Below are positions 7,875 to 32,559 of a stretch of DNA of 32,766 nucleotides, one piece after another (the stretch's first letter is position 1; every line of letters starts with the position of its first letter). The notes beneath the pieces were generated by a model, which did no database searches, was not told the origin of the DNA, and saw nothing but the letters and a program-made list of their open reading frames with translations. Source of the stretch: Armatimonadota bacterium (GTDB lineage Bacteria > Vulcanimicrobiota > JACPDT01); the NCBI GenBank assembly GCA_016183865.1, contig JACPDT010000317.1:1-32766 (forward strand), given 5' to 3'. The position numbers and the translations under genes were made by a program.

Positions 7875-7887
7875 GGCTGCCCCTCAC
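7871..7887. terminator. Small inverted repeat spanning stop codons of convergent atoE and pntB
   Basis: GTGAGG (7871-7876) - CTGCC - CCTCAC (7882-7887); atoE TGA at 7872-7874 and pntB TGA complement at 7884-7886 lie inside the two arms. No strong T-tract. Confidence 0.35.
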
Positions 7888-9305
7888 TCTTCCTTAAGCG
7901 CTGTCACCAGTTTTTGTGCCGATGCCTTGGCATCCCCGAAAAGCATCCTGCATTTTGGATCATAATACAGCTCATTGTCAATTCCCGCGAAGCCGGGCTT
8001 CATGCTGCGCTTCATGATGATGATGTTCTTGGCGTGATCCACATTCAGAATCGGCATACCATAGATGGGACTTTGAGGGTTGCTTCGGGCGGCAGGGTTC
8101 GTGACATCATTGGCGCCGATGACCAGGGCCACATCGGTGCGCTCAAAGTCGTCATTGATCTGGTCCATTTCCAGAAGCTTGTCATAGGGGACATCGGCTT
8201 CCGCAAGAAGTACATTCATATGACCCGGCATGCGCCCCGCCACAGGATGGATTGCATATCGCACCTCAACCCCTTTTGCCTCCAGGAGATCCCCTAATTC
8301 CCTTACGGAGTGCTGCGCCTGGGCCACAGCCATTCCATAGCCTGGGACAATAATTACACTGCGGGAATAGGCCATGAGGGTGGACGCATCGTCGGCAGAG
8401 ATCTCCTTGATGACAACCCCTGCCGGACCCGCTACAACGCCTGCTTTGCCGTCGGTTCCGAAACCGCTGAAAAGGACATTGCCGATGGAGCGGTTCATGG
8501 CTTTGCTCATCAGGTGCGTCAGAAGTGCGCCCGATGCTCCCACAAGGGTGCCGCTTATGATCAGAATGTTGTTGTGAAGTTGAAATCCTGTAGCGGCAGC
8601 GGCAAGACCTGTGCAGGAGTTGAGAAGAGAGATTACCACAGGCATATCGGCGCCGCCGATGGGGATGACCCCAAGGACGCCTATGAGGAGGGCGCAGCCA
8701 CCCAGGACCAGAAAAAGGGTCTGATTGTGCGGACCGGCCACCTGCGAGGCGGCCAGGCCCAGAATGCCCAGGAACACAAGGCCATTCACGGCGTTCTGCC
8801 CCGGAAAGAGCAAGGGTCGGCCAGGGAGGATCTCCTGGAGCTTTCCAAAGGCGATGAGGCTTCCTGTAAAGGAGATGGACCCGATGATCGTCCCAAACAT
8901 TATGGAAAGAGCGTTCACGAGAGGCAGATGCTCACCTGTTGCCGCCGCGTGCAGGAATTCCGCCGCCGAGACAACCGCCGCTGCGCCGCCTCCGACGCCA
9001 TTGTAAAGAGCCACCATTTGCGGCATGGCGGTCATTTTCACTTTATAGGCGGTGACGGCGCCTGCGATTCCGCCTATGGCGATACCCAGCGCGATCAGGC
9101 CGATGTTGAGGGTCTGGTGGGTTTTCACGATATTCAGAACCGCGGGACTGGACAGGGTCGCTGCAAGGGCGATGAGCATGCCGATGGTTGCGACCCGGTT
9201 GCCCAGGCGCGCCGTGGCGGGCGAGCTGAGCTGGCGCAGGCCCAAGATAAAAAGAATCCCTGCCACGAGATAAGCCAGTGCGATGGCAATATGAAGCAAG
9301 TCCAC
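7884..9305 (-). CDS. pntB: NAD(P) transhydrogenase subunit beta
   Basis: Motifs VEVRYAIHPVAGRMPGHMNVLLAEADVPYDKLLEMDQINDDFERTDVALVIGANDVTNPAA, IYGMPILNVDHAKNIIIMKRSM, GYAGIDN-like PGFAGIDNELY. Confidence 0.97.
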   Translation of the reverse strand: MDLLHIAIALAYLVAGILFILGLRQLSSPATARLGNRVATIGMLIALAATLSSPAVLNIVKTHQTLNIGLIALGIAIGGIAGAVTAYKVKMTAMPQMVALYNGVGGGAAAVVSAAEFLHAAATGEHLPLVNALSIMFGTIIGSISFTGSLIAFGKLQEILPGRPLLFPGQNAVNGLVFLGILGLAASQVAGPHNQTLFLVLGGCALLIGVLGVIPIGGADMPVVISLLNSCTGLAAAATGFQLHNNILIISGTLVGASGALLTHLMSKAMNRSIGNVLFSGFGTDGKAGVVAGPAGVVIKEISADDASTLMAYSRSVIIVPGYGMAVAQAQHSVRELGDLLEAKGVEVRYAIHPVAGRMPGHMNVLLAEADVPYDKLLEMDQINDDFERTDVALVIGANDVTNPAARSNPQSPIYGMPILNVDHAKNIIIMKRSMKPGFAGIDNELYYDPKCRMLFGDAKASAQKLVTALKEE

Positions 9306-9601
9306 TAGCGGGCACCCCCTGGTTTCTTTTTGAACATCTGGAGCATCCTGTCGGTAACGAGAAAGCCCCCCGCCACGTTCATCGCACCGAACATCACGGC
9401 TATGAAGCCCAAAGCGAGCTGAAGATTGGTCTGGGCCGTTGCGGTGACCAGAATTCCGCCCACCAGAACGATGCCGTGAATGGCATTGCTTCCCGACATA
9501 AGCGGAGTGTGAAGAATCGTCGGAACTTTGGAGATGACCTCAAACCCCACAAAGACAGCAAGACAGAATACGTAGAGCTCAGCCAGGAGTTGCTCGTTCA
9601 T
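9305..9601 (-). CDS. pntAB: NAD(P) transhydrogenase subunit alpha, membrane part
   Basis: VFCLAVFVGFEVISKVPTILHTPLMSGSNAIHGIVLVGG; overlaps both pntB and pntAA ends. Confidence 0.95.
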   Translation of the reverse strand: MNEQLLAELYVFCLAVFVGFEVISKVPTILHTPLMSGSNAIHGIVLVGGILVTATAQTNLQLALGFIAVMFGAMNVAGGFLVTDRMLQMFKKKPGGAR

Positions 9602-10770
9602 GATGCCCCCTTCACGGAAGCGCCTTCGAGTTTTGCCCTCGTCTGCTCGTGCAGGATCTTTCCTTCATGTGTCAGGCAGGTGTCGCGAATGATCTCATCC
9701 TCAAAATTGAGATTCAGTTCCCCTTCTTTCACCATGTTCAGGAGAAATGCGGCCATATTGCGTGAATACATCTGACTGGCATGGTAGGGGAGGGAGGCGG
9801 GAAGATTCAGAGGTCCCATTATCAGGACACCGTGGCGGACCACGTCCTCTCCTGCTTTTGAAAGAGGGCAGTTTCCTCCTGCCTCGGAAGCCAGGTCCAC
9901 AATCACAGACCCCGGTTTCATGTCCTTCACCATTTCTTCGGTCACAAGGACCGGAGCAGGCTTCCCGGGAATCAATGCCGTTGTGATGACCACATCCGCA
10001 TCTTTCACGTGTTTGTGGATCAGCTCTCTTTCCAGACGGACATGCTCCGGAGAAAGCTCCTTGGCATAGCCCCCGGCATCCTGAGTGTCCTCATGACCAA
10101 GATCCACTTCCAGGAATCGCGCTCCAAGGCTCTGAACCTGCTCCCTGACAACAGGGCGAACATCAAAAGCCTCGACAACGGCCCCAAGACGCTTTGCTGT
10201 GGCAATGGCCTGGAGCCCCGCCACCCCTGCGCCAAGTACCATCGCCTTGGCGGGGCGCACCGTGCCGGCTGCCGTCATGAACATGGGAAAGAATCTAGGC
10301 AAAGCGTTCGCTGCCGTGAGCACCGCCTTGTACCCAGCCACTGTGCTCATGGATGAAAGGGCATCCATGCTCTGGGCCCTGGTGATGCGTGGGATCGCAT
10401 CCATGCTGAAAGCCGTGACCCCTCTCTCGGCCAGTTGTTTCACAAGATCAGGATTGGTGAGAGGCTGAAGAAAAGCGACCAGGGCGGATCCCTTGGGAAG
10501 GAGGTCCATCTCATGCTTCCCCAGAGCTTGATTCGGCAAGGGTTTTTGGATTTTCAGGACAAGCTCCGCCTGTTGATACAGTTTTGCAGTATCGGCCACA
10601 ATTGCGGCCCCGGCTTCCTGATAAGCAGTATCAGGGAAGCCTGCCTGCTCTCCGGCCCCGGCCTCTACCAGGACCTCCAGCTTGGCCGAAACGAATTTGG
10701 CAACCGTTTCAGGCACAAGCGAAACCCGCCTCTCCCCTGATGCGATTTCCTTGGGGACAGCCACCTTCAT
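9598..10770 (-). CDS. pntAA: NAD(P) transhydrogenase subunit alpha, soluble NAD-binding part
   Basis: MKVAVPKEIASGERRVSLVPETVAKF start at 10770 with AGGAGG SD; MVLGAGVAGLQAIATAKRLGAVVEAFDVRP; PAPVLVTEEMVKDMKPGSVIVDLASEAGGNC. Confidence 0.95.
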   Translation of the reverse strand: MKVAVPKEIASGERRVSLVPETVAKFVSAKLEVLVEAGAGEQAGFPDTAYQEAGAAIVADTAKLYQQAELVLKIQKPLPNQALGKHEMDLLPKGSALVAFLQPLTNPDLVKQLAERGVTAFSMDAIPRITRAQSMDALSSMSTVAGYKAVLTAANALPRFFPMFMTAAGTVRPAKAMVLGAGVAGLQAIATAKRLGAVVEAFDVRPVVREQVQSLGARFLEVDLGHEDTQDAGGYAKELSPEHVRLERELIHKHVKDADVVITTALIPGKPAPVLVTEEMVKDMKPGSVIVDLASEAGGNCPLSKAGEDVVRHGVLIMGPLNLPASLPYHASQMYSRNMAAFLLNMVKEGELNLNFEDEIIRDTCLTHEGKILHEQTRAKLEGASVKGAS

Positions 10771-10953
10771 CTTTGCGCCTCCTTTAGTGGCTCCTGACAC
10801 GAATCCCATCACGCCTTGGCGAGTCGCATCCATTGCCAAATCACTGACGCTATTCATGTCGTGGGCCACTTAGCCTTGCAGCCCTCTTCCCTCAGTGAGT
10901 CAATGGGGTTATTCTTACATCAATCTTGGCATTCCTGCAACCGGAAGAGCCGT

Positions 10954-11000
10954 AATTCACCACCTCCCCCTCGAAGGGGGAGGGCAGGTTGTGGTGGATT
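10954..11000. repeat. Two-part inverted repeat in divergent pntAA/VKOR intergenic region
   Basis: Inner CTCCCCCT (10964-10971) CGA AGGGGGAG (10975-10982); outer AATTCACCAC (10954-10963)/GTGGTGGATT (10991-11000), 9/10 complementary. Confidence 0.6.
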
Positions 11001-11040
11001 CTGGAGGACGAGAAGAGGGGAGGGGGAAAAGAGAAATGAT

Positions 11041-11460
11041 ATGAGTTATTTCATTTTTGTTCTCGCATTTCTTGGCTTCTATATAGCGGCTTATTTCTGG
11101 CTTGTCGGCCGTGGGCTGCTGAAACAAGACAACCGGATTGTTCCTTCGTTTTGCAGGCTCCATGAGGGTACGTGCAGGAAAGTGCTTGAAACGGGCTATG
11201 CCAGTATTTTCGGGGTTCAGAACTCCTTCCTGGGGATCATTTACTATAGCGCCGTATTGATCGCCCTTGGAACGGGACAATGGCTCACACACTGGGTGTC
11301 GGCCGCCCTTGCAGCGGTAAGCTGGTTCACGACGGCCGTCAGCCTGTACCTGATCCATGCCCTTTTCTACAGGATCAAAGTCCCATGCCCCTTGTGTCTT
11401 GTGAGCCACGGGATCAATCTGGCTCTTGCAATAGCCTTGACCTTTGCCGCCACTCATTGA
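11041..11460 (+). CDS. Vitamin K epoxide reductase (VKOR) family protein
   Basis: ATG at 11041 (ORF opens upstream). FCRLHEGTCRKVLETGYASIFGVQNSFLGIIYYSAVL...YRIKVPCPLCLVSHGINLALAI: loop cysteine pair plus CPLC in a small TM protein. Confidence 0.85.
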   Translation: MSYFIFVLAFLGFYIAAYFWLVGRGLLKQDNRIVPSFCRLHEGTCRKVLETGYASIFGVQNSFLGIIYYSAVLIALGTGQWLTHWVSAALAAVSWFTTAVSLYLIHALFYRIKVPCPLCLVSHGINLALAIALTFAATH

Positions 11461-11475
11461 CTCAAGCTACAAGCA

Positions 11476-11497
11476 GGACAGGCGTCCCGCCCTGTCT
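11476..11497. terminator. Bidirectional hairpin between convergent VKOR and NHL genes
   Basis: GACAGG (11477-11482) ... CCTGTC (11491-11496), loop CGTCCCGC; 35-nt convergent gap. Confidence 0.45.
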
Positions 11498-13007
11498 ACC
11501 GTGGCGATCCGGCCCTGCCTGCGGTCTCCAGAACCTTCGGTTCCAGAGTCTTGACTGTCCCTGTTTTGAGGTCGGCGATCCTCACGGCATGATTGCCTGT
11601 GTCTGCTATATACAGGCATCCGCAAGCCGCACTCAGACCCTCGGGCGAGTCGAGCAACGGACTTTCTCCGTCGCGAAATCCCCTTTCCCCTGTTCCCAGA
11701 TACGTGACCGACTCCCCTGTAAAGTCGGAGAGTTTCTTGATCTTGTTGTTATAAGTGTCCGCCACGTATATGATACCATCATGCCAGGAAACTCCGGATG
11801 GATGCTGCAGGCGCACTTCCGCTCCTGCCCCGTCCCTGTCACCGAATTCCAGGAAACCGTTCCCCACAAGGGTCTCCACTCTCCCGCCGGGATTGGGGTC
11901 GGCCCTTCGAAGGGAGCTGGTTTCGCTGTCGGCAAAGTACAGCCTTGCTCCATCTGTTGTAATGCCGCTCGGTTGCGCCAGGGCACAGGCGCCGAGGGGC
12001 CCGTCTATCCTGGCTTCAAGGCCGGCGCCTATCAGAGGGGATGCGATGCCTGTTTCCAGATCCAGAAGCCAGATCTGGTTGGTTCCTGCCATGGCGATAT
12101 AGAGCATTCCCCCGCACAAAGTAAGATCCCAGGGAGAGCTGAGCCTGATCTGTGTTCCCGGACCGGTCTGATGTCCTCCAAGCGCTCGCTTGCCTGTTCC
12201 TGCAATCGTTCCGACCCTTCGGGTCCGGAGATCCAGCATCCGGATGGCGTGGTTTTCCGTGTCCGCCACATACAGGGTATCGCCGGCCAGGGCAAGACCC
12301 TGGGGCCGGTTGAATCGTGCTTCCTCGAAGCTTCCGTCTTTGAAGTCTGCCGTTGCGGTTCCGGCCGTGTCCTGCACGACCCCATCGGGAAGAGAAAGAA
12401 TCACGATTCGGTTGTGGTTGGAGTCGGACACGAACAGCCTCCCGCCGTCAGGCTCGGCGAGAACTTTGCCTGGAAAAGAGAAGATGGAATCATGGATGTC
12501 GTTCCTCTCCTGGATTGCGTCCAGCCGCTTGCGGGAAAGTTGTCCTCTTCGCTCGAAGCTGCGTGCCGTTTCGGCGATCATCTCGTCGAGGACGCCGTGG
12601 GATCTCTCTCCAGAGATGCGCTCCACAATGTTCCCTGCGAGATCAATCAGAATCAGGGTTGGTCGGACCTGAACCTCATACCGGTTCCAGAGGATTCGTT
12701 CAGGATCGCTGACAACGGGATGGGCGATTTCGTATCGCAGGACAGCCTTTCGGACATTCTCGGTGAGCCTCTCGGCGGGGAATTTGGCCGAATGAACTCC
12801 AATTGCAAGCAGCTCTTCCCTGTACCTGCTCTCCAGTTTCCGCAGATCGGTCAGGATGTGCAAAGAGGCAACGGAACCGTAAGTCCAGAAATGAAGGAGA
12901 ACGACCTTACCTCGCAGATCCCTCAGTGTCAGAGGCTGACTTACATTCAGCCACTCAAGCCCCTCAGGGAACTCGATGGCCGGTACTTTCCATACTTCCT
13001 GCAACAT
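11496..13007 (-). CDS. NHLRC2-like protein: thioredoxin-like N-domain + NHL-repeat beta-propeller
   Basis: LRGKVVLLHFWTYGSVASLHILTDLRKLESRYREELLAIGVHSAKFPAE (thioredoxin-like) followed by repeated RPQGLALAGDTLYVADTENHAIRMLDL type NHL repeats. Confidence 0.85.
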   Translation of the reverse strand: MLQEVWKVPAIEFPEGLEWLNVSQPLTLRDLRGKVVLLHFWTYGSVASLHILTDLRKLESRYREELLAIGVHSAKFPAERLTENVRKAVLRYEIAHPVVSDPERILWNRYEVQVRPTLILIDLAGNIVERISGERSHGVLDEMIAETARSFERRGQLSRKRLDAIQERNDIHDSIFSFPGKVLAEPDGGRLFVSDSNHNRIVILSLPDGVVQDTAGTATADFKDGSFEEARFNRPQGLALAGDTLYVADTENHAIRMLDLRTRRVGTIAGTGKRALGGHQTGPGTQIRLSSPWDLTLCGGMLYIAMAGTNQIWLLDLETGIASPLIGAGLEARIDGPLGACALAQPSGITTDGARLYFADSETSSLRRADPNPGGRVETLVGNGFLEFGDRDGAGAEVRLQHPSGVSWHDGIIYVADTYNNKIKKLSDFTGESVTYLGTGERGFRDGESPLLDSPEGLSAACGCLYIADTGNHAVRIADLKTGTVKTLEPKVLETAGRAGSPR

Positions 13008-13043
13008 CGGTCAACACCACCCCGGAAATTCCTTTGGCGGGCA

Positions 13044-13475
13044 TCAGGGATAGGCGGCCCTGTCTCTTTCCCCGTAATTCACAAGCTCAAGCAGATTTCC
13101 GCTGGGATCCAGGAAGTAGCAGCATTGATGGTCTCCCCACTCTATCGGCCCATGGGTGGGGACTTTGTTTTCATTGAAAAGAAAGCGAAAACGTTCAAAA
13201 TCATCATTCTCCACCAGGAAAGCGTGATGAGGCTTTCCCAGGGGGTTCAGGATGAGATCGGCATTGATCTTGTCCATGTAAGGGGCGTGAAAGATGCCCA
13301 TGTTCTGATGTCCGCACCGCAGCAGAATCTGGTCTGGAAGTCTGAGCTCAATGGTCATTCCCAGGAGTCCGCAGTAAAATCGTTCCGATTCCGCCAGATC
13401 CCTCACGGGCATTCCCCAGTGATCCAGCCCCAGGACTCTGACCCTTGCTTCCGTTCGCTCCCGCAAAAGACTCAT
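13044..13475 (-). CDS. VOC (glyoxalase/bleomycin resistance/dioxygenase) family protein
   Basis: VLGLDHWGMPVRDLAESERFYCGLLGMTIELR ... CYFLDPSGNLLELVNYG. Confidence 0.85.
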   Translation of the reverse strand: MSLLRERTEARVRVLGLDHWGMPVRDLAESERFYCGLLGMTIELRLPDQILLRCGHQNMGIFHAPYMDKINADLILNPLGKPHHAFLVENDDFERFRFLFNENKVPTHGPIEWGDHQCCYFLDPSGNLLELVNYGERDRAAYP

Positions 13476-13554
13476 GGCCCATCACCCGACCTTCCGCTGA
13501 AATAGGGTAAAAAGGATGTCCTTAGTATGATTTTACCAGAAAAGGGAAAAGAAG

Positions 13555-15360
13555 TCAAGAATCTGTTTTCAATTTTCTGCGCCAGTGGAGGAAGGAATCC
13601 AGCAGAATGGTCACAGTCAAGGCCATCATTACGGCGGTCAGAATCGAATTCAGGGCGCCTATCAGTGCGGTTTCGGGCTTCCATGTCTGGGGTAGGAAGA
13701 TCTCAATAATACTGCGGTAGCCGGCGGTTAGTGTCGTTGTCGCCACGAAGGACATGGGCAGCAAAGTTACCCAGACATAGCGGGTCTTGCCCTCATTGAC
13801 CAGTACGGTCGTTCCCACACATAGGGCCACAACGGCGAGCAACTGGTTCGCGGTTCCGAACATGGGCCAGATTGTCGAAATGGTTCCTGTCAGGATGAAA
13901 TAGGACCACAAGACTACTATGACCGCGCTGGACAGGACGGTTCCAGGCAGCCAGTCCGTGCGCTCAAAAGGCTTCCATTTCCTCCCTACGAACTCCTGAA
14001 GAATAAAGCGCGCCACCCGGGTTCCCGTATCTATTGTGGTGAGAATGAACAGGGCCTCAAACATGATGGCGAAATGGTACCAGAGATCCATCACTCTTGG
14101 GAGGAATGGAACCTTGCTGAAGATTTGGGCCATCCCCACAGCCAGGGAGACTGCGCCTCCGGTGCGTCCCGCCAGCTCCTCCCCGACCTGTTTGGAGAGA
14201 AGGGCGAGGTTTTCCGGGTGCATCCCCAGTGTCTCGAAGGCGGCCTTCGGGACATTTATGGCAAAATAGTCTCCTGGGAAGAGGGAACATGCGGCGATCA
14301 GGGACATGATGCCCACAAATCCCTCGCAGAGCATGGCGCCATAACCGATGATCCTGGCATCCGATTCCCGATTGATCATCTTGGGAGTGGTCCCGGAGCC
14401 CACAAGGGCATGGAAGCCGGAAATCGCCCCACAGGCGATGGTGATGAATACAAAGGGAAAGACCTTTCCGGGGATGATCGGTCCTCCTCCTGCCGTGAAT
14501 TCGGTCAGAGGGGGCATTCGAAGCTCCGGCGCCACGATGACGACTCCGAGAGCGAGAAGGCCGATGGTTCCGATCTTCATGAAGGCAGAGAGATAATCCC
14601 GAGGACACAGGAGCATCCAGACGGGGAGGATGGATGCGGTGAAGCCATACACTCCCATTGCTATCGTAAGCTGAGTGTCGTTCATGGTGAGAAAATGACC
14701 CATCCGGGTGCCAGGGATGTATTTGCCTGCCACAACGGCAATGACCAGAAGGATCACGCCGATCACGGTTCCTTCCGTGATTTTCCCTTTCCGGAACCGG
14801 TACATGTAAAGGCCCATAAAAAGGGCGATCGGTATGGTGAGCCCCACTGTGAATACACCCCAGGGGCTTTTCATCAAAGCCATCACAACCACTTTGCCAA
14901 GGCCCGCAAGGGCGATGACTACGATAAACAGGATCGCAATGGATGCTATCGTTCCTGAAAGGGGACTGATTTCCGATCTGGCGATCTCTGCGAGAGACTT
15001 TCCCTTGCGTCGCATGGACGAGGCCAGGATGATGAAGTCGTGGACCGCGCCGCCGAGACACACCCCGATCAAGATCCACAGGAATCCCGGAAGAAAGCCG
15101 AACTGGGCAGCCAGCACCGGACCGATGAGGGGACCGGCCCCTGTGATGGCCGCAAAATGATGCCCGAAAAGGACCCAGCGGTGGGTGGGATAGTAGTTGT
15201 GTCCATCGTAAAGCGTGTGGGAAGGGGTCTCCCGGGCATCGTCCAGAACCAGGAGCCTTGTCGCGATAAAGGCAGAGTAGTACCTGTAGGCGACAGCCAT
15301 GACGCACAAAGTGCCTAAAACGATGGGAAGCGCGTTCGTAGTCTCACCCCTGTTCCACAC
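13555..15360 (-). CDS. cstA: Carbon starvation protein CstA family (peptide/pyruvate transporter)
   Basis: [86 protein letters not shown] start at 15360. Confidence 0.93.
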
Positions 15361-23716: not shown

Positions 23717-25045
23717 TTAGTAACCCCTGAGCTCGTCCATTCTGCGAAGCTCATCTGCTTCTTCTCTTAGTGCAGCGATCTCCACATCAAACTCGGAATC
23801 CTCTGATGTCGTGAACATGGCTTTGGGCGCAATCTGGTTCAGGTCGTGTTCGGAACCGGTGATCGTCATGGGCGCTGCGCCGTGAAGGGCCTCTTTTCGC
23901 TTGGAATCGTGGCGAGGTCCAAGATAAATCGGATCCACGGATATCCTGGAGCTCCAATCTTCCTGGAAAATGGTCTCGAATTCGCTGTTTACTTCCTTTG
24001 AGATGATATCTGCCCCAGCTTCTCTGTGGACGTGGAAGCCCGCGTGTGTCCAATTGGCGCTTCCCACGATGACGCGATCGCCGTCAAATGCGGCGGCTTT
24101 TGCGTGGAGCTTTTCCGCAGTTTCAGGATTACAGGTGTACCACATCGCCTGGATTCCCGACTGTCTCAGCTCCTGCACAGCTCTTTCGTTTACAGGAAAA
24201 CCGTTTATTCTCAAAGGATGTACAATAACTTTTACATCTACACCGCGCTCATGGGCATCTTTAAGAGCCTGGATCACCGGTTTTGATGTAAGAGCGAAAA
24301 GTTCTGCATGAACTGAGCGCTTTGCTCCAGAGACTGCTTCCAGGACAGCTTCCTCATAAGGGGCGCCGGATTTGGGTCCTGATGTCACGACCCGCACAAG
24401 GGCATTCGCTTCCGGATGCGCGGGGGTCTTATTCATTGCAGGGAGGTCCTCTTTATCGCCTCCAGACTTGATCCAGTCTTGCCGGAAGTTCCGCTTCGCG
24501 TCATCTACGGCAGGACCGACGATTTCCACATCATAATCGTGATTCAGAGGAGAATGTTTGCCCCAGTTCATCCCTCCCAGAATGGCCTGATGCCCGTCTA
24601 TGATCAGCATCTTTACATGACACAACTGGCCTTTTCGTGCAGGATAGAAAAGAACCTCAACGCCGCTCTTCTCAAGCTTCTCTTTGATCTCATCCCGAGG
24701 CGCCTCGAATTTATCATTAGGAGGGTCCATAATGACCTGGACCTTGATTCCTTTCCTGGCTTCCTGGATCAGGAGATCAACCATTTCCGGCTTCTGGAGA
24801 TCATACATCTCGAGCCGTATGGAGGATTCGGCCCCCCGGATCGCTTCTTGTATATGAGCAAAGATCTCGTCCGAAGAGTCGGCAGGAGTGACGCTCTTGC
24901 CGGAAAGAAGGGCAACCTTGTTGCCGCTCAGATAAGAGGAGTCACCTTTGTCTCCTGGGGATCCCGGTTGATCGGACGCCTTCTTGTGTTTCTCCTTTTT
25001 TGGCGCCAGATCGCTGGGAAACGCGGCGCCGATGTTCTGAATCAT
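23717..25045 (-). CDS. Phospholipase D superfamily (cardiolipin synthase-like) protein, two HKD motifs
   Basis: LCHVKMLIIDGHQAILGGMNWGKHS and KLHAKAAAFDGDRVIVGSANWTHAG: HxKx4DxxxxxxGxxN twice. Confidence 0.9.
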   Translation of the reverse strand: MIQNIGAAFPSDLAPKKEKHKKASDQPGSPGDKGDSSYLSGNKVALLSGKSVTPADSSDEIFAHIQEAIRGAESSIRLEMYDLQKPEMVDLLIQEARKGIKVQVIMDPPNDKFEAPRDEIKEKLEKSGVEVLFYPARKGQLCHVKMLIIDGHQAILGGMNWGKHSPLNHDYDVEIVGPAVDDAKRNFRQDWIKSGGDKEDLPAMNKTPAHPEANALVRVVTSGPKSGAPYEEAVLEAVSGAKRSVHAELFALTSKPVIQALKDAHERGVDVKVIVHPLRINGFPVNERAVQELRQSGIQAMWYTCNPETAEKLHAKAAAFDGDRVIVGSANWTHAGFHVHREAGADIISKEVNSEFETIFQEDWSSRISVDPIYLGPRHDSKRKEALHGAAPMTITGSEHDLNQIAPKAMFTTSEDSEFDVEIAALREEADELRRMDELRGY

Positions 25046-25140: not shown

Positions 25141-25307
25141 TGCCTGTCCCCGCGGTCCCCCAAGGCTATGGTATATGAGTTTCCATTGCCGGTGTCGCCA
25201 TTCTGATAGACCGCGAGTCTCTTGCAATTGGAATTCGTCTGTACTATAATAGTAAAAAAGATCCAGGCCGACATTCGGGTCCCTGGTGACCCTGAGAGGG
25301 TGAGCAT

Positions 25308-25619
25308 GTGAAAAAAAAGGATGAAAACAAGGAGCAAGGACACGAGGTTTTGACCCGACGGGCGGCCATGAAACGAATCGCCGCCGCGATGGGCGGGGCA
25401 GCGTTGGGAGTCGGAATGTTCGGGCAGGCCCCGGAGGCCTGGGGCCAGTACTCAAGCTCCAGGCAGATCGCCCGATACATAAGCATTGAGGGCTCATACG
25501 TAGACACCGTCTATGTAGACAACAAGTACGTCAACCGCGGCCCGAGCTATAAAGACTACGTGTCTTTCTATAAGAGCTACTCAAGCCACAGGCCGCCGCC
25601 GCCTCCGGGCAAGAAGTAG
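25308..25619 (+). CDS. Short Tat-signal-bearing Tyr-rich peptide; candidate RiPP precursor
   Basis: GTG start; twin-arginine leader LTRRAAMKRIAAAMGGAALGVGMFG; mature part GQYSSSRQIARYISIEGSYVDTVYVDNKYVNRGPSYKDYVSFYKSYSSHRPPPPPGKK, nine Tyr each in Y-x-[S/D/N]. Confidence 0.65.
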   Translation: MKKKDENKEQGHEVLTRRAAMKRIAAAMGGAALGVGMFGQAPEAWGQYSSSRQIARYISIEGSYVDTVYVDNKYVNRGPSYKDYVSFYKSYSSHRPPPPPGKK

Positions 25620-25729
25620 CGCTCTCTTCGGAAGGATACCGGCTGTGCTCGGCGGTGGGAAAGGAGGGACGAGCTTCGTCGCGTCCGGCGTCTCTTCTCT
25701 CGATGGGGAGGAATAAGGCCCGTGGCTGT

Positions 25730-27751
25730 CTATAAGAGCCCTCTAATGGCTTTGTAAATGATTTTCAGGCTCAGTCCATTCATACAGTGTCCGTCCCCTT
25801 CCGGGCAGTCCGTCTGGTAGCTGTCCGCACTGCCCTTCCCGATGCACCCTTTCGCATACTCACAATTCACGTCCGCCTGCAGATGGACTTGTCCCGAGTA
25901 GCCGTAGACTCGATGATCGGTCGGTCCCCAGAGGACGACCGCCGGAATTCCGCACAAATGGGCGGCATGCATGATGAAATTGTCTGATGTGACAACAGCA
26001 TTGAAGCGCCCGACAAGAGAGATCAATTGTCTGGGCGTTGTCAATCCCAGCAGACTGTGGGCTCCCCGGATATAGCGATCCCTCATTCTCCCGGCCTGGA
26101 CGATCCCGATCCCGTCTCGATTCAGAACCTCCACAAGGGATTCCCATCTATCGAGGGCCATCTGTTTTCTGGGAGAATCGGAGCTCTGGCAAACCAGAAC
26201 ATTGCGCTTTTTCCACGGTATGAGGCCAGGGAGAACGGGATCATCCTCCGGCGTCCAGGGGATGTAGAGGAGCTCCGGAACAGGAGTCGCGATGCCGAAC
26301 ATGCGGGCCAGAACCTGATAAGCCCTCTTCCCGTGAAGCTTGTAGTCTTCCTGGTCCCAGTAATTTGTGCCGATGAATCCGGCCCCTGGAGGGGGATGGC
26401 CGATGTGAGCGATTGCCGGGTGGCCCTTAAGAAGAGGAGGATATTTTGTTCGGGAAACCAGGTTGAATTGTCGAGAGGGATCCTGTTCCACAACCTGTTT
26501 CAGGACTCCCGAAATCATCAGGGTATCTCCCAATCCCCCGACGGGGTTGATCCACAAGAGATCTCCGTTTCCCATCGCGGGTTCAAGCTGCCTTTTTCCC
26601 GCAACCTTTGTCCCTTGAAGGTGAAGGGCATTTTCCGCCTGAGCCGGCTCGGCAACCGCCGATTCGCCTCTTACTGTGGGCTCGAAATATTGCTCAATAA
26701 GATCCCTCTTTGCCGCACACCATTCCGTTTTGTGAAGAAATGACCCTGAATGGGACCACGAGTCGAGGGGGCAGCCCCCGTGGCAGATGTTCCAGAACCG
26801 GCAGCCTTTGCATTCCCCCTTGGGTAGAACCTTGTTGCGCTCAAGAAGGGCAGCCCTCTGGGGATCTGCAAAAACCTGGGAAAAGGACTTGTCGAAAACG
26901 GAGCCATAGGGGAGCAGGCCCCAGTCCCCCGAACGGCCGCAATGCGACAGGCTTCCATCGGGCAGCAGGTTCAAGTGCGTATGGGCGCAGGCCCCTGAGT
27001 CGCAGCACATCAATGATGGGCTTCCCTCAAGAAGATTGCGAGTCAGGGAAAAGAAGGGCTCCACCTGGCCATACTGTTCACGGCGCTTCCACCATACGGG
27101 AAAGATCGCCCCGAGAAAATGGGCGTATTCCTCGGGGGTGATTTTCAATTGCCAGGGGTCCCCGCCATAGAGAAGGACAGGGTTGAACATGAATGATCCC
27201 TTCGGGGAGAGGTTGGAAAGAAACTGAAACACCTCGAGGGGTTTCGCCAGAGATCGCCTTGTCACCACATAGATGACTCCCCAACTGAATCCTTCTTCTT
27301 CCACGAGACGGAGAGCCTCCATGAACCTCTTGTTATAGGTCTTTGAGTCGCGTTTGGGCCCCAGACCTCTGATATCTCCTATGGGATCGTAGCTTGTGCC
27401 TATGCTTCGAATTCCCAGCTTTCCAAGAATCTCCGCGAACTTCCGGGAAAAGAGAGTAAGGTTGCTCTGCATATCATGCCTGATGCGGTCGCATGTTTTG
27501 GGGCAATGCTTCTCCTGAAAAGAAAGAGCCTGTGAGAAAAAGTCAGGACCCAGCAAAAGGGGTTCTCCACCGTGCCAGATGATTTCCATGTGCTCTTGGG
27601 GTCGTTCCAGCAGGAACTCATTGATCCGACAAAAGAAGATCTCCAGGGTCTCGGCGGACATGGTGGGTGTACGGGGTTTCTTGCGCACAACGTCGCAATA
27701 GGCGCATCTCCCGTTACATGCCTCCGTGGGCTTGAAAATTACGGTTGCCAT
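25730..27751 (-). CDS. Radical SAM/SPASM protein fused to a glycosyltransferase family 9 (heptosyltransferase-like) domain
   Basis: N-terminal CNGRCAYC (CxxxCxxC) rSAM core; SPASM-like CCDSGACAHTHLNLLPDGSLSHCGRSG...CKGCRFWNICHGGCP; C-terminal ~270 aa NPVGGLGDTLMISGVLKQVV...VTSDNFIMHAAHLCGIPAVVLWGPTDHRVYGY as in GT9. Confidence 0.85.
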   Translation of the reverse strand: MATVIFKPTEACNGRCAYCDVVRKKPRTPTMSAETLEIFFCRINEFLLERPQEHMEIIWHGGEPLLLGPDFFSQALSFQEKHCPKTCDRIRHDMQSNLTLFSRKFAEILGKLGIRSIGTSYDPIGDIRGLGPKRDSKTYNKRFMEALRLVEEEGFSWGVIYVVTRRSLAKPLEVFQFLSNLSPKGSFMFNPVLLYGGDPWQLKITPEEYAHFLGAIFPVWWKRREQYGQVEPFFSLTRNLLEGSPSLMCCDSGACAHTHLNLLPDGSLSHCGRSGDWGLLPYGSVFDKSFSQVFADPQRAALLERNKVLPKGECKGCRFWNICHGGCPLDSWSHSGSFLHKTEWCAAKRDLIEQYFEPTVRGESAVAEPAQAENALHLQGTKVAGKRQLEPAMGNGDLLWINPVGGLGDTLMISGVLKQVVEQDPSRQFNLVSRTKYPPLLKGHPAIAHIGHPPPGAGFIGTNYWDQEDYKLHGKRAYQVLARMFGIATPVPELLYIPWTPEDDPVLPGLIPWKKRNVLVCQSSDSPRKQMALDRWESLVEVLNRDGIGIVQAGRMRDRYIRGAHSLLGLTTPRQLISLVGRFNAVVTSDNFIMHAAHLCGIPAVVLWGPTDHRVYGYSGQVHLQADVNCEYAKGCIGKGSADSYQTDCPEGDGHCMNGLSLKIIYKAIRGLL

Positions 27752-28608
27752 ACCCGCGACTCCTCATTCTGCAGTTTTCGGGCTCTGTTCTGACAGGCTG
27801 TTTCCAACATTTCACGGAAAAAAGCGGAGCACCCATTGTTTCCGGGCTTATTTGGAGCGAATCTTCCAAGGCAAGCTTTCCATCCGACGCAAGAGGCGCA
27901 GTGGTGGTTCTCGGCCAGGAGTCGTCTCCACCTGTTTGTCCTTTCCCTGATCGCTGGAAATTCGGCATCTTCTTCGATTTTTGAGAGATCATGGGCGATG
28001 AACTTCCTTGCCTTGAGATCCCCTCGATACAGCGCCACTCGCCCTGTTGCATCAAGATGCAGAAAATGCCTCGGGTCATCGAACCATATGGACCCCCATT
28101 CCAGGTATGCGGAGGGGTCATAGTTGGAAGCAATGAAGGCAAAAGGCTCGATTGAGGCGTGGGGAACGCGCTCAAGCACGGCATAGGTCATCAAGTCTGT
28201 GAGGGCATCCCAGTCCGTCCCGCCGTCGCCGAAAACCGCGCAAGAGTGAATCCCCACAGAAGACAGGATCCGAAGGGCAACGATATTGTCGGGATGGTTG
28301 CAGGGCAGGTAAACTCGCAGATCAAGATCCCGCAGCAAGTTGAGACCTTTTGCAAGATTGCGGAATTTCCCCAGAGATGGCGCCATGATTGCCAGGGGAG
28401 TTCCTTTCAGGTTTTCCCAGAGGTCGAGGTCGGACAGCGGAGAATCGGATTCCACCATCACGCAAAGGAGGTTGTTCCCGCTTTCTCGCACATGCCTCGC
28501 AGCCTTCTGAGCGTGATGGAGGCCGGTCACCTTCACGGCCACCGTGTATCCCTGAAGGCTTCTCAGCAGGGTCTTGTTATGGGGACAGACGATTTTTGGC
28601 AAGCTCAT
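27739..28608 (-). CDS. rSAM-associated protein lacking the CxxxCxxC motif but with a C-terminal Cys cluster
   Basis: Overlaps both neighbouring rSAM ORFs; C-terminus HHCASCVGWKACLGRF...NNGC resembles a SPASM/auxiliary-cluster remnant; no N-terminal CxxxCxxC. Confidence 0.6.
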   Translation of the reverse strand: MSLPKIVCPHNKTLLRSLQGYTVAVKVTGLHHAQKAARHVRESGNNLLCVMVESDSPLSDLDLWENLKGTPLAIMAPSLGKFRNLAKGLNLLRDLDLRVYLPCNHPDNIVALRILSSVGIHSCAVFGDGGTDWDALTDLMTYAVLERVPHASIEPFAFIASNYDPSAYLEWGSIWFDDPRHFLHLDATGRVALYRGDLKARKFIAHDLSKIEEDAEFPAIRERTNRWRRLLAENHHCASCVGWKACLGRFAPNKPGNNGCSAFFREMLETACQNRARKLQNEESRVWQP

Positions 28609-29605
28609 CCTCGATTTCCGGAAGCCTCACAGGCGCCTCAGGGATAAGGCGGTTCAGGACCTGGCACAGCCCACCCCCGGCGCAAACACAGTCTTCCTGG
28701 TATCTGCAGCCATCGCATTCATCATAAATTCCAGGAATCTCCGCCTTGATCTCATCCCTGAGTTTCCAGAAATGATCCTCGATCTGTTTCATCGAGTTGA
28801 ATTCAAAGAGCGATTTTCTCCGGTAATTGGAAAGGGGAAAGCAGAAATAGACACCCATATCGGGCGATATGTCGCAGGCCGGGCCGCAACCAAACTCGAC
28901 AGCGCCTCTGAAGCGGTGAAGCCATCCCAGCTCCTCATCATTGAACCGACAGATGGGAAATCCGCAGTCCAGTCCGGGCCTGACCCGGAGCGTATCGAAA
29001 AGGGACCGATAGGAGTATAGCCGCTCCACGACATGTCTGATTTCCTTCGGGTGGATGAAACGGCTCCCTGCACCCGGGATGGGGTGGGCGATGCCGATGC
29101 GCAAATGTCGCTTCAAGCCGAAACGGTTGATGAGGTCAAAGAGAAAATCGAGCTTGAAATCGGGGCGATAGATATTGAAGCCCGGACTGACCCAGGGCCC
29201 CATGAGGGAGAGAAAACGTTGGATGCTCCCTGTTTCCTTTTCTGAAGCGGGTGTCTGCGCAGGATCATTCAGGTTGCACACAAGGGAAAATCGGTCTGTG
29301 TTGACATCGCAGAGGTGATGCTTGAGCTCTTCGAGCCTGGAGGGGCTCAGGATTCCATTCGTGAAGACTGTAACATCAAAGCCTCGTTCCAGCAGATAGA
29401 GGACAAAATCAACAAATTCGGGGTGTACCGTCGGCTCCCCGCCCAGAAGGGACAAATGCCTCTCCCCTGATGCCTTGAGGAAATCCGCGATGTAGATGAG
29501 GTTCTCCCAGGACATGCGAATCCCGGTGTCCCCCGACATTTCTTCCTTTGCGAAACAATAGGGACAGGAGCGGTTGCACCGTGTGGTAAGAAGTATATTC
29601 GCCAT
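28577..29605 (-). CDS. Radical SAM/SPASM protein
   Basis: LLTTRCNRSCPYCFAKEEMS (CxxxCxxC), GGEPT, C-terminal CGPACDISPDMGVYFCFPLSNY...CDGCRYQEDCVCAGGGLC SPASM-like. Confidence 0.88.
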   Translation of the reverse strand: MANILLTTRCNRSCPYCFAKEEMSGDTGIRMSWENLIYIADFLKASGERHLSLLGGEPTVHPEFVDFVLYLLERGFDVTVFTNGILSPSRLEELKHHLCDVNTDRFSLVCNLNDPAQTPASEKETGSIQRFLSLMGPWVSPGFNIYRPDFKLDFLFDLINRFGLKRHLRIGIAHPIPGAGSRFIHPKEIRHVVERLYSYRSLFDTLRVRPGLDCGFPICRFNDEELGWLHRFRGAVEFGCGPACDISPDMGVYFCFPLSNYRRKSLFEFNSMKQIEDHFWKLRDEIKAEIPGIYDECDGCRYQEDCVCAGGGLCQVLNRLIPEAPVRLPEIEDELAKNRLSP

Positions 29606-30534: not shown

Positions 30535-32559
30535 TTACAGGCTGGCGCTCGGCCGTCGGGGCCTGTCGTTCACCAGGCGTGTTCCCTGACCGACAAGCTT
30601 CATCACATTCTGCTGGAGAAATGCGGGGGCACTGTTCGCGGCGATTTGAAGGAGGGTGTTCCATCTGAAAGGTGGCGGCACGTCCCACTCAACCTTGAAT
30701 TCGGCTCCGGAGGCCGCGTCATGTTCAAATTCAGATTCAAAAACCGTCTTTAGATGCCGGGCAAGGTCAGGGTCCGATATCCGCAAATTCAGCTCCTTGT
30801 TCAAGTAGAAAGCCTGCGGCGTCCAGTCGCACGAACCTGCAAGAACTATCTCATCGTCGAAAAGGGCCATTTTTGTGTGAAAGTGGCGCCGGCAGTCGTC
30901 GGGTGAGCGCTTTTCATCCTTGAAGATTCGCGTCTCCACGCCCGATTCCGTCAGTCTCTCCCATGCTTCCCTGTTGACCGGAGCATTCGAAAGAAGAACC
31001 CGTATCTTCACACCCCCCTGGTGTGCTTCGATCAGCTCATTCACTACATTTTTGTCCGTGAGCCAGTACATTCCCACATCTATGGATTTCTTTGCCTCCC
31101 TGATGCTCCGGTTCACGTGTTCCGCGATTCTATCGTTTCCCGGCTTGCTTCCCACGATCTCGACGGCGGGGCTTTGATCGTAGTGAATCACGTAGCGGGG
31201 TGTGCCGCCCGATTCTCTCCAATCTTCCTCAAAGAGCCTGCGGGTTTCATTTACAGTATCGCCTGTGACAAGAAAGGAGAGATCAAAGTTCTCATTTTTT
31301 CCGAACATCTCGCCCCAGTTCTTGCTGCCCACGATGGCCGCTTTGTCGTCAATAATGGCCAGTTTCGTGTGATTGAACTGCCAGAGGGACTTCGTGATCG
31401 GATATTCCAGAACGGCAGCCCCTGCGGCCCGAAGATCATCCATGGTTTTGCGGTGTATTTCTTCATCCTTTTCAGACCAGCCGAGAGGATTGTTCATGAT
31501 CCGGACTTTCACTCCCTCTGCCAGCTTCTCTTTCAACAGGTCAGCCATGATTGTGCTCTTGAAGGAGAACATCTCCACGTCAATGGAACGGACGGCTGAG
31601 CGGACCAGACTCAGTGCCGCGGGGTCAATCGCCTCATTCGAGAGGGGAACCAGGGTCGTAGCTCCGACTTTGAAGGCAGGCTTGTCCCCCAGCCCGATGG
31701 AGCCGGGGTCGAAGGGTTCAGGGGGCTCGGCCTGGCCTTTCTCCGTGGTGTTCCTTTCCTTCTCCCCATGAAAAACGGAATCCCCGAACAAACGGCCATA
31801 TTGGCTGCCGATCTCAAACCCTTTTCGTCCGCCGCGATAAAGGCCGACAACGAGGCCAAGGGGGGTGCCGATCACCATTCCCGCCGCGTTTGCAATCGCG
31901 TTGCTCCCCGTCGTTTCCTCCAGGAATTCGTGAATTCTGTAAGTCGGTTTTGCAAGAGTATTTTCGATCTTGCCGAATCCGTACACCGATTCAGGTGAGT
32001 ATTTGCACGCAATCTCTGCATTCACATCGTCAATCTTGTCTCTGGCCGCCCTGTCCGAGAGATAGGCGCCAAGGCCGGCGCCGACAGTTCCCATCAATGC
32101 CGCCCCTGCCAGGCCGCCTGCCAGGGTGACCGCCGCTCGGCCCAGACGCTCCAGATATCCCTTTTCGGTGGTCCCTGTTGACTCTTGCGGCTTCCTGTTT
32201 TCGGAAGTATTCCTCAGATAATGGGTCTCATAAGAGAAAATCTTTTCACCAGGTTCATACCGGTAATTCATGTGGGCAGGCACGAAGTCGTGCCCATGAC
32301 CTGACTCCTGGTGGGAGACGACGGGGTCTTCGCCGCCGGAAGCGGTCTTGTGGCAGCGCATCATACGCATGAAGCCCATGGTGCCGCCCTTGAAGAGTCC
32401 GTATTCCTTCACCGCTTCCAGGGTGTATTGGGAGCATGATGGAGTATACTTACAGCCATAATTTCGGTCATCCCGCAGGCCTGCCGAAACATGCTTCTGG
32501 TACTTCCTGATGGCCCAGACGCCGAATTTGCCGAGCACTGGAGAGACAGGATCTCGCAT
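30535..32559 (-). CDS. Fusion: N-terminal YidD domain + Gly-rich hydrophobic segments + PLD-superfamily domain (two HKD motifs)
   Basis: aa ~10-75 AIRKYQKHVSAGLRDDRNYGCKYTPSCSQYTLEAVKEYGLFKGGTMGFMRMMRCHKTASGGEDPV = YidD signature; AAVTLAGGLAGAALMGTVGAGLGAYL glycine-zipper-like; FNHTKLAIIDDKAAIVGSKNWGE and HFHTKMALFDDEIVLAGSCDWTPQ = HKD motifs. Confidence 0.88.
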   Translation of the reverse strand: MRDPVSPVLGKFGVWAIRKYQKHVSAGLRDDRNYGCKYTPSCSQYTLEAVKEYGLFKGGTMGFMRMMRCHKTASGGEDPVVSHQESGHGHDFVPAHMNYRYEPGEKIFSYETHYLRNTSENRKPQESTGTTEKGYLERLGRAAVTLAGGLAGAALMGTVGAGLGAYLSDRAARDKIDDVNAEIACKYSPESVYGFGKIENTLAKPTYRIHEFLEETTGSNAIANAAGMVIGTPLGLVVGLYRGGRKGFEIGSQYGRLFGDSVFHGEKERNTTEKGQAEPPEPFDPGSIGLGDKPAFKVGATTLVPLSNEAIDPAALSLVRSAVRSIDVEMFSFKSTIMADLLKEKLAEGVKVRIMNNPLGWSEKDEEIHRKTMDDLRAAGAAVLEYPITKSLWQFNHTKLAIIDDKAAIVGSKNWGEMFGKNENFDLSFLVTGDTVNETRRLFEEDWRESGGTPRYVIHYDQSPAVEIVGSKPGNDRIAEHVNRSIREAKKSIDVGMYWLTDKNVVNELIEAHQGGVKIRVLLSNAPVNREAWERLTESGVETRIFKDEKRSPDDCRRHFHTKMALFDDEIVLAGSCDWTPQAFYLNKELNLRISDPDLARHLKTVFESEFEHDAASGAEFKVEWDVPPPFRWNTLLQIAANSAPAFLQQNVMKLVGQGTRLVNDRPRRPSASL

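Follow-up and report, generated by a model that had tools for sequence, protein, structure and literature searches.

A putative radical SAM RiPP cassette with Tat-leader, tyrosine-repeat precursor peptides and a GT9 domain fused to a radical SAM enzyme

Several described systems bear comparison with the locus analyzed here. In the His-Xaa-Ser system (HxsABCD), two radical SAM (rSAM) enzymes act with an aromatic-x-Ser repeat protein; to our knowledge, this system has no partner protein or GT9 domain of the kind described below. The precursors of dynobactin and darobactin are short and Trp-based, and are not known to be borne by the Tat pathway, which, unlike Sec, takes folded cargo. TIGR04347 and TIGR04150 represent types of pseudo-rSAM/SPASM partner proteins. 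For the triceptides, precedents of crosslinks between residues i and i+2 include Tyr-Asp (YxdB), Tyr-Arg (YhhB), Phe-Ser, and Trp-Asn and Trp-Arg, the last two exemplified by OscB and XncB (PMC11002830). A search of the open-access full-text literature returned no relevant paper on Tat-linked, tyrosine-rich or heptosyltransferase-linked rSAM RiPPs.

The window, i.e. the whole 32,766-nt stretch of DNA that was analyzed, assigned to an Armatimonadota bacterium, contains three genes on its minus strand, which encode rSAM1 (342 aa, 28577-29605; CNRSCPYC motif, PF04055 at 63.5 bits), a partner protein (289 aa, 27739-28608), and a 673-aa fusion (25730-27751) of a second rSAM/SPASM enzyme, rSAM2 (approximately 26687-27751), with a GT9 domain (approximately 25733-26632). 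An earlier, sequence-only reading of this DNA had delineated these ORFs and that of a nearby peptide, and the coordinates, strands and lengths of all four held on re-checking. It had also described the three genes as mutually overlapping, two of them as rSAM/SPASM, and the GT9 domain as fused to rSAM2; we find the same, with overlaps of 32 and 13 nt, which make the three genes probably translationally coupled, with CxxxCxxC in both rSAMs, and with a PF01075 match of 26 bits against a cut-off of 22 bits. For rSAM1, for the partner and for the peptides, a specific model is lacking in both NCBIfam and Pfam. The cassette is flanked by two twin-PLDc phospholipase D-like proteins (30535-32559 and 23717-25045), the former with a YidD domain fused N-terminally. 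The 4.4-Mb genome to which the window belongs (G000) yields 69 Radical_SAM matches, several of them in tandem clusters (e.g. C116, C302, C141, C55).

The precursor peptide gene (25308-25619, plus strand, GTG start) encodes 103 aa. Its 46-aa leader (25308-25445) comprises the twin-arginine signal LTRRAAMKRIA and a hydrophobic stretch, and ends at a probable signal peptidase site, assigned by eye between AWG and Q; the proposal that this is a Tat leader is upheld by a TIGR01409 (TAT_signal) match of 17.9 bits, above the cut-off of 16.7. The core (57 aa and stop, 25446-25619) contains nine Tyr residues, all of them, as had been claimed, in Y-x-[S/D/N] (YSS, YIS, YVD, YVD, YVN, YKD, YVS, YKS, YSS), an arrangement with zero occurrences in 200,000 shuffles of the core; the most lenient post hoc test, which allows any offset and any three residues, gives p = 0.0015. 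Sequence comparison indicates that the window peptide is under coding constraint; it aligns with its 104-aa homolog from the locus L044 with a score of 165, compared to a shuffled maximum of 29.5, and the pN/pS value for the pair is 0.52. A possible promoter of the peptide gene (TTGCAA-17-TATAAT, 25222-25250, plus strand), found in a scan for the sigma-70-like consensus with 10/12 positions, is weak evidence, since 0.5 such sites are expected by chance in the region. The gene is convergent with the rSAM operon and lies outside of it, a caveat that had rightly been raised for the window; in other loci, the peptide gene either precedes rSAM1 or comes after GT9, and has the same direction as the cassette.

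A single-sequence scan with the full-length rSAM2-GT9 protein found no relatives, whereas the rSAM domain of the window protein, aligned to remote relatives and scanned over GTDB species genomes, recovered a family. According to rSAM2 identity, its closest members are L044 (74%) and L048 (64%) from deltaproteobacterial MAGs, L045 (73%) from a Geobacter-labelled MAG, L047 (51%) from Bacteroidetes and L046 (47%) from Muribaculaceae; all five retain the order rSAM1-partner-rSAM2, and four of them possess Tat-leader Tyr-rich peptides. Scans with profiles of the partner protein, which covered about 1,100 genomes, detected it, within the Muribaculaceae order, in 6 of the 393 genomes sampled (profile A3; G151 and G152 included) and, among 396 genomes of the phylum of L044, in the genome of L044 itself (G149) and in four strong and three remote members. 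No homolog of the partner was found in a plasmid collection. Together, 14 cassettes are known, from the window and at least 13 other genomes, which are MAGs of deltaproteobacteria and Bacteroidales, and rSAM1, partner and rSAM2 are observed in all of them in the same order. The four proteins have diverged in step, with r 0.78-0.95 between their pairwise distances. One apparently degenerate cassette, L110 (G473, 7910-12270), has KK instead of RR in the leader, no GT9, and a transposase-like gene directly downstream, in a genome that has TatC.

The cassette of the window looks horizontally acquired: among 149 genomes of the window's phylum, the Tyr-type partner is found only in the window's own genome, the closest relatives of the cassette are deltaproteobacterial, and the flanking gene for PntB (7884-9305) encodes a protein up to 57% identical to those from genomes of the window's own phylum. 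None of the seven deltaproteobacterial genomes with the cassette that were tested yielded PntB. The GC content is uniform (0.55) over the cassette and its flanks.

The 16 peptides of the family contain from 4 to 77 Tyr residues, which make up to 57% of the core, and most of the cores are covered by triplets of the form Y-x-[S/N/D] or Y-x-[N/R]. In 13 of 16 cores, there are more non-overlapping Y-x-[SDN] tiles than in shuffles of the same composition (p<=0.01); the shuffles ignore tandem duplication, and these p-values therefore overstate independence. The evidence for the motif is the agreement among unrelated repeat units. Y-[S/T/A]-S repeats make up the core of L112 (YSSAYASGYSSGYSSTYPSGYTS), the third position (X3) is mainly Asn/Asp or Asn/Arg in the cores of L111 (NYANYADYTNYAN), L113 (YYYNYGDYYYNYGD) and L114 (YYNYSRSYRRYYNYYNYSRYNRS), with Arg at X3 and Y-x-[N/R] tiles in the two L114 peptides, and a further core is that of L118 (YYNYYNYYNYYSYSSYYSYYS), from the same contig as L046. 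Cores rich in Tyr-Tyr (Y-Y-N-Y-Y-S) can also be read in other registers, and the core of L048 has only four Tyr residues, half of them in register. All the residues found at X3 in the cassettes (S, N, D and R) have triceptide precedents (PMC11002830). As to the leader, RR-x-A-[ILM]-[KE]-R is common to 15 of the 16 peptides, i.e. conservation is seen beyond the Tat motif; one of the L046 peptides scores above the TIGR01409 cut-off and two others below it. TatC is present in 17 of 17 tested genomes with the cassette or a remote relative of it. The Muribaculaceae genome G151 has a single TatC gene, which lies immediately after three Tyr-repeat Tat peptides of the cassette (L046, 8564-9379); a special relation of this gene to the cassette was rejected, as 133 of the 149 genomes sampled have TatC.

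The CxxxCxxC motif and the auxiliary Fe-S cysteines of both rSAM1 and rSAM2 are invariant in all 14 loci. In rSAM1, 42-72% identical to its counterparts in five other genomes, CNRSCPYC is accompanied by seven more invariant Cys residues in a SPASM/twitch-like arrangement, and the structural model resembles SkfB, SuiB and PqqE. A role of rSAM1 in defense was considered and rejected, as matches to viperin (pVip; 56 bits) span only the common rSAM core. A second rSAM2 paralog is found between rSAM2 and GT9 in L112 (11472-12521). On a plasmid of Candidatus Chlorohelix allophototropha (NZ_CP128402.1, L156), genes for three rSAMs are accompanied by small proteins of unknown kind, and the middle rSAM shares 33% identity with rSAM1 across 94% of its length; this is a different multi-rSAM cluster, not the same cassette, and the two small proteins that were read are not Tyr-rich.

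The partner had been described as a Cys-cluster protein without CxxxCxxC, and the family bears this out, with four invariant cysteines (C237-x2-C240-x5-C246-x13-C260) in addition to the conserved EPF, H150 and H184. The window partner has no sequence match in Pfam, NCBIfam or PDB. Its AF2 model has a pLDDT of 62, and the best PDB matches, several of them TIM barrels, all have E>0.01, so that the model is too weak to name the fold, including that of a pseudo-rSAM, with a (beta/alpha) barrel and a SPASM-like cluster. A weak match to the partner in the genome G090 was discarded: the frame contains a stop, no cassette surrounds it, and the 14-member profile does not recover it.

With multi-member profiles, and not convincingly with the window partner alone, the partner could be linked to a protein encoded between peptide and rSAM in a family of W-x-N loci (HHalign 98.3%, E 2.6e-14, 241 columns). 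These loci (L024, L025, L026, L055-L059, L061, L062, L068, L069, L073, L079-L081, L086) come from Verrucomicrobiota (including Chthoniobacter flavus), MAGs of the Eremiobacterota phylum, and Accumulibacter; their rSAM resembles the anaerobic sulfatase-maturating enzyme (anSME), and W[IVL]NR repeats follow a Tat leader. None of the W-x-N peptides tested matches an NCBIfam precursor model, and neither rSAM1 nor GT9 was noted beside peptide, partner and rSAM in the flanks read. With no GT9 seen there, the peptide, partner and rSAM look like the core unit; given the homology of the partners, the Tat leaders and the known Trp-Asn and Trp-Arg crosslinks, ring formation and Tat export would be the natural common denominator of both families. 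L116 (G903, 10034-13569) is a system intermediate between the Tyr-type and W-type families: its Tyr-repeat peptide (YTNYGA...) has a leader like that of the W family (RRDFLKNLRKWSL), and it is accompanied by rSAM1, rSAM2 and a partner that is divergent.

We propose, with moderate confidence, that the locus is an rSAM RiPP cassette, whose precursor would acquire triceptide-like rings between Tyr and X3 in the cytosol, be glycosylated by GT9, and be exported by Tat. That the precursor is modified at all is an inference: the core of Y-x-[S/N/D/R] triplets would be processed in the cytosol by the two rSAM enzymes and the Fe-S-type partner. The ring chemistry, likewise inferred, would join each Tyr ring by a C-C bond to the beta-carbon two residues further on (i+2), and the product would be a rigid multi-ring rod. 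As the division of labor we infer that rSAM2 would be the likeliest ring-former, and that rSAM1 and the partner may serve in leader recognition or in a second modification. The modified peptide would be glycosylated by the GT9 domain, which is fused to rSAM2 or encoded directly after it, both sugar and acceptor being inferred. In the presumed order of the steps and of export, the folded, crosslinked peptide would then leave by Tat, and its leader would be cut at the signal peptidase site; Tat would fit because a ring-locked peptide is a folded cargo. As for a final role that is not known, no dedicated genes for immunity or a peptidase are recognizable, and the peptides reach 77 Tyr residues, which would fit a material of the envelope or surface better than a small antibiotic that diffuses. 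Against the rings it must be noted that there is no product mass or structure, that rSAM2 scores far below the cut-off for every characterized three-residue cyclophane-forming enzyme (3-CyFE) family, and that L110 and L048 are atypical.

It could be objected that the peptide is an ordinary exported Tyr-rich structural protein and only an incidental neighbor of the cassette, as the genes are convergent in the window and Tyr-rich low-complexity proteins exist elsewhere. The sequence-only reading had asked for co-occurrence in other genomes, and would have been refuted by cassettes that consistently lack the peptide or peptides that occur without rSAMs. An adjacent Tyr-repeat peptide is observed in 12 of 14 cassettes from distant taxa, which are all 12 of those not cut by contig ends; L045 and L108 lack it, but their contigs stop right after rSAM2, and the peptides of the Bacteroidales relatives lie past GT9. 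Within the genomes scanned, neither of the refuting patterns was found, no Tyr-repeat peptide was present in about 70 control loci (remote rSAM relatives and TatC genes), and the leader is specific to the family; coincidence seems to us scarcely credible. Another view would make GT9 the main decorator, with the rSAMs acting on its sugar or on a cofactor instead of the peptide. Sugars are indeed substrates of some rSAMs, BlsE comes third in the fold comparison of rSAM1, and GT9 follows rSAM2 in 11 of 12 loci that extend that far, fused in three (the window, L044 and L048) and as a separate gene in eight, i.e. the link persists where the fusion is two genes; only L110 lacks GT9 despite enough sequence beyond rSAM2. 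Moreover, L044 (6735-7925) and L045 (2122-3354) encode directly before rSAM1 a protein of 396 and 410 aa, respectively, with a DDD motif and no Pfam match, which is a probable further glycosyltransferase-like gene. However, both rSAMs resemble peptide maturases, and no GT9 was seen in the flanks read of the W-x-N family, where peptide, partner and rSAM look like the core unit; we find little to recommend a sugar-directed role.

The rSAMs may also modify the peptide in a way other than cyclophane formation, such as conversion of Ser to formylglycine in the manner of anSME, oxidation of alpha or beta carbons, or Tyr-Tyr or Tyr-ether links. The nearest PDB structure to rSAM2 is anSME (4k37, E 1e-18), and Ser is the commonest X3 residue in several peptides. 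Among NCBIfam models, sulfatase_rSAM (132 bits, cut-off 349) is second only to DynA (144, cut-off 450) and precedes DarE (108, cut-off 650), and rSAM2 fails all three. The comparison with triceptide and other rSAM-RiPP models had been advocated in the sequence-only reading; cyclophane-forming families (GrrM/OscB, FxsB, XyeB, AmcB, YhhB) are among the matches of rSAM2, which falls below every NCBIfam cut-off (e.g. YhhB 84 vs 445 bits, FxsB 73 vs 370) and cannot be placed within any of these named 3-CyFE families. The SPASM cysteines and CHGGC of rSAM2 are invariant. Against an anSME-like activity, the position aligned to the Asp that follows a SPASM Cys of anSME, its catalytic base, is in all 14 loci an invariant Gly; nor would Ser/Cys oxidation of the anSME type use the X3 residues of L111, L113 and L114. 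A chemistry of this kind remains conceivable, and we regard it as unlikely.

If correct, the proposal of Tyr-X3 rings, glycosylation and Tat export would define a RiPP family not described so far, with precursors extremely rich in Tyr and an rSAM-fused glycosyltransferase, an enzyme that works iteratively on dozens of sites in each substrate, and a new family of rSAM partner proteins. It would also allow for a direct test of whether Tat exports pre-crosslinked peptides, and make the peptides candidates for an envelope material of Bacteroidales, among them a gut Muribaculaceae genome, as well as of deltaproteobacteria and the phylum of the window. It is tempting to go further, although here we can only speculate and would not be surprised to be wrong, and to consider an export-coupled class of RiPPs, in which glycosylated, cyclophane-laddered poly-Tyr rods with tens of tandem three-residue rings would be made by a complex of two rSAMs, partner and GT9, and moved whole through Tat because they are locked beforehand; with the W-x-N family included, the export of aromatic-ring peptides by Tat may be a general strategy in uncultured bacteria.

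Among the known systems, dynobactin and darobactin are close insofar as DynA and DarE are among the best NCBIfam models for rSAM2, with scores far below their cut-offs; for the His-Xaa-Ser system, the score is 48 bits versus 370 for HxsB. The window partner resembles the pseudo-rSAM/SPASM partner proteins in its Cys cluster without CxxxCxxC, which may be SPASM-like, but differs from them in that it matches no NCBIfam model. The cassette GT9 is akin to the heptosyltransferases of PF01075, with scores of 26, 29.7 and 32.7 bits above the gathering score of 22 and, around the G-x-GD motif, an Asp that is invariant; it differs by the fusion to an rSAM and by three invariant C-terminal Cys residues, and it is distant from the LPS heptosyltransferases I-III (23 bits for the GT9 of L046 versus 135). 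With the triceptides and their 3-CyFEs (XncB, OscB, MscB, YxdB, YhhB, HaaB), the cassette has in common an rSAM/SPASM maturase beside a precursor with aromatic-x-[N/D/S/R] repeats, but departs from them by the family-wide Tat leader, two rSAMs with an Fe-S-type partner, GT9, up to 77 Tyr residues, and a maturase below the cut-offs. The W-x-N family differs from the Tyr cassette by Trp in place of Tyr, Gly-rich spacers and the leader RRxFLxxxGKWSxAA, and shares with it the Tat leader as such, a homologous partner, a related rSAM and aromatic-x-N repeats.
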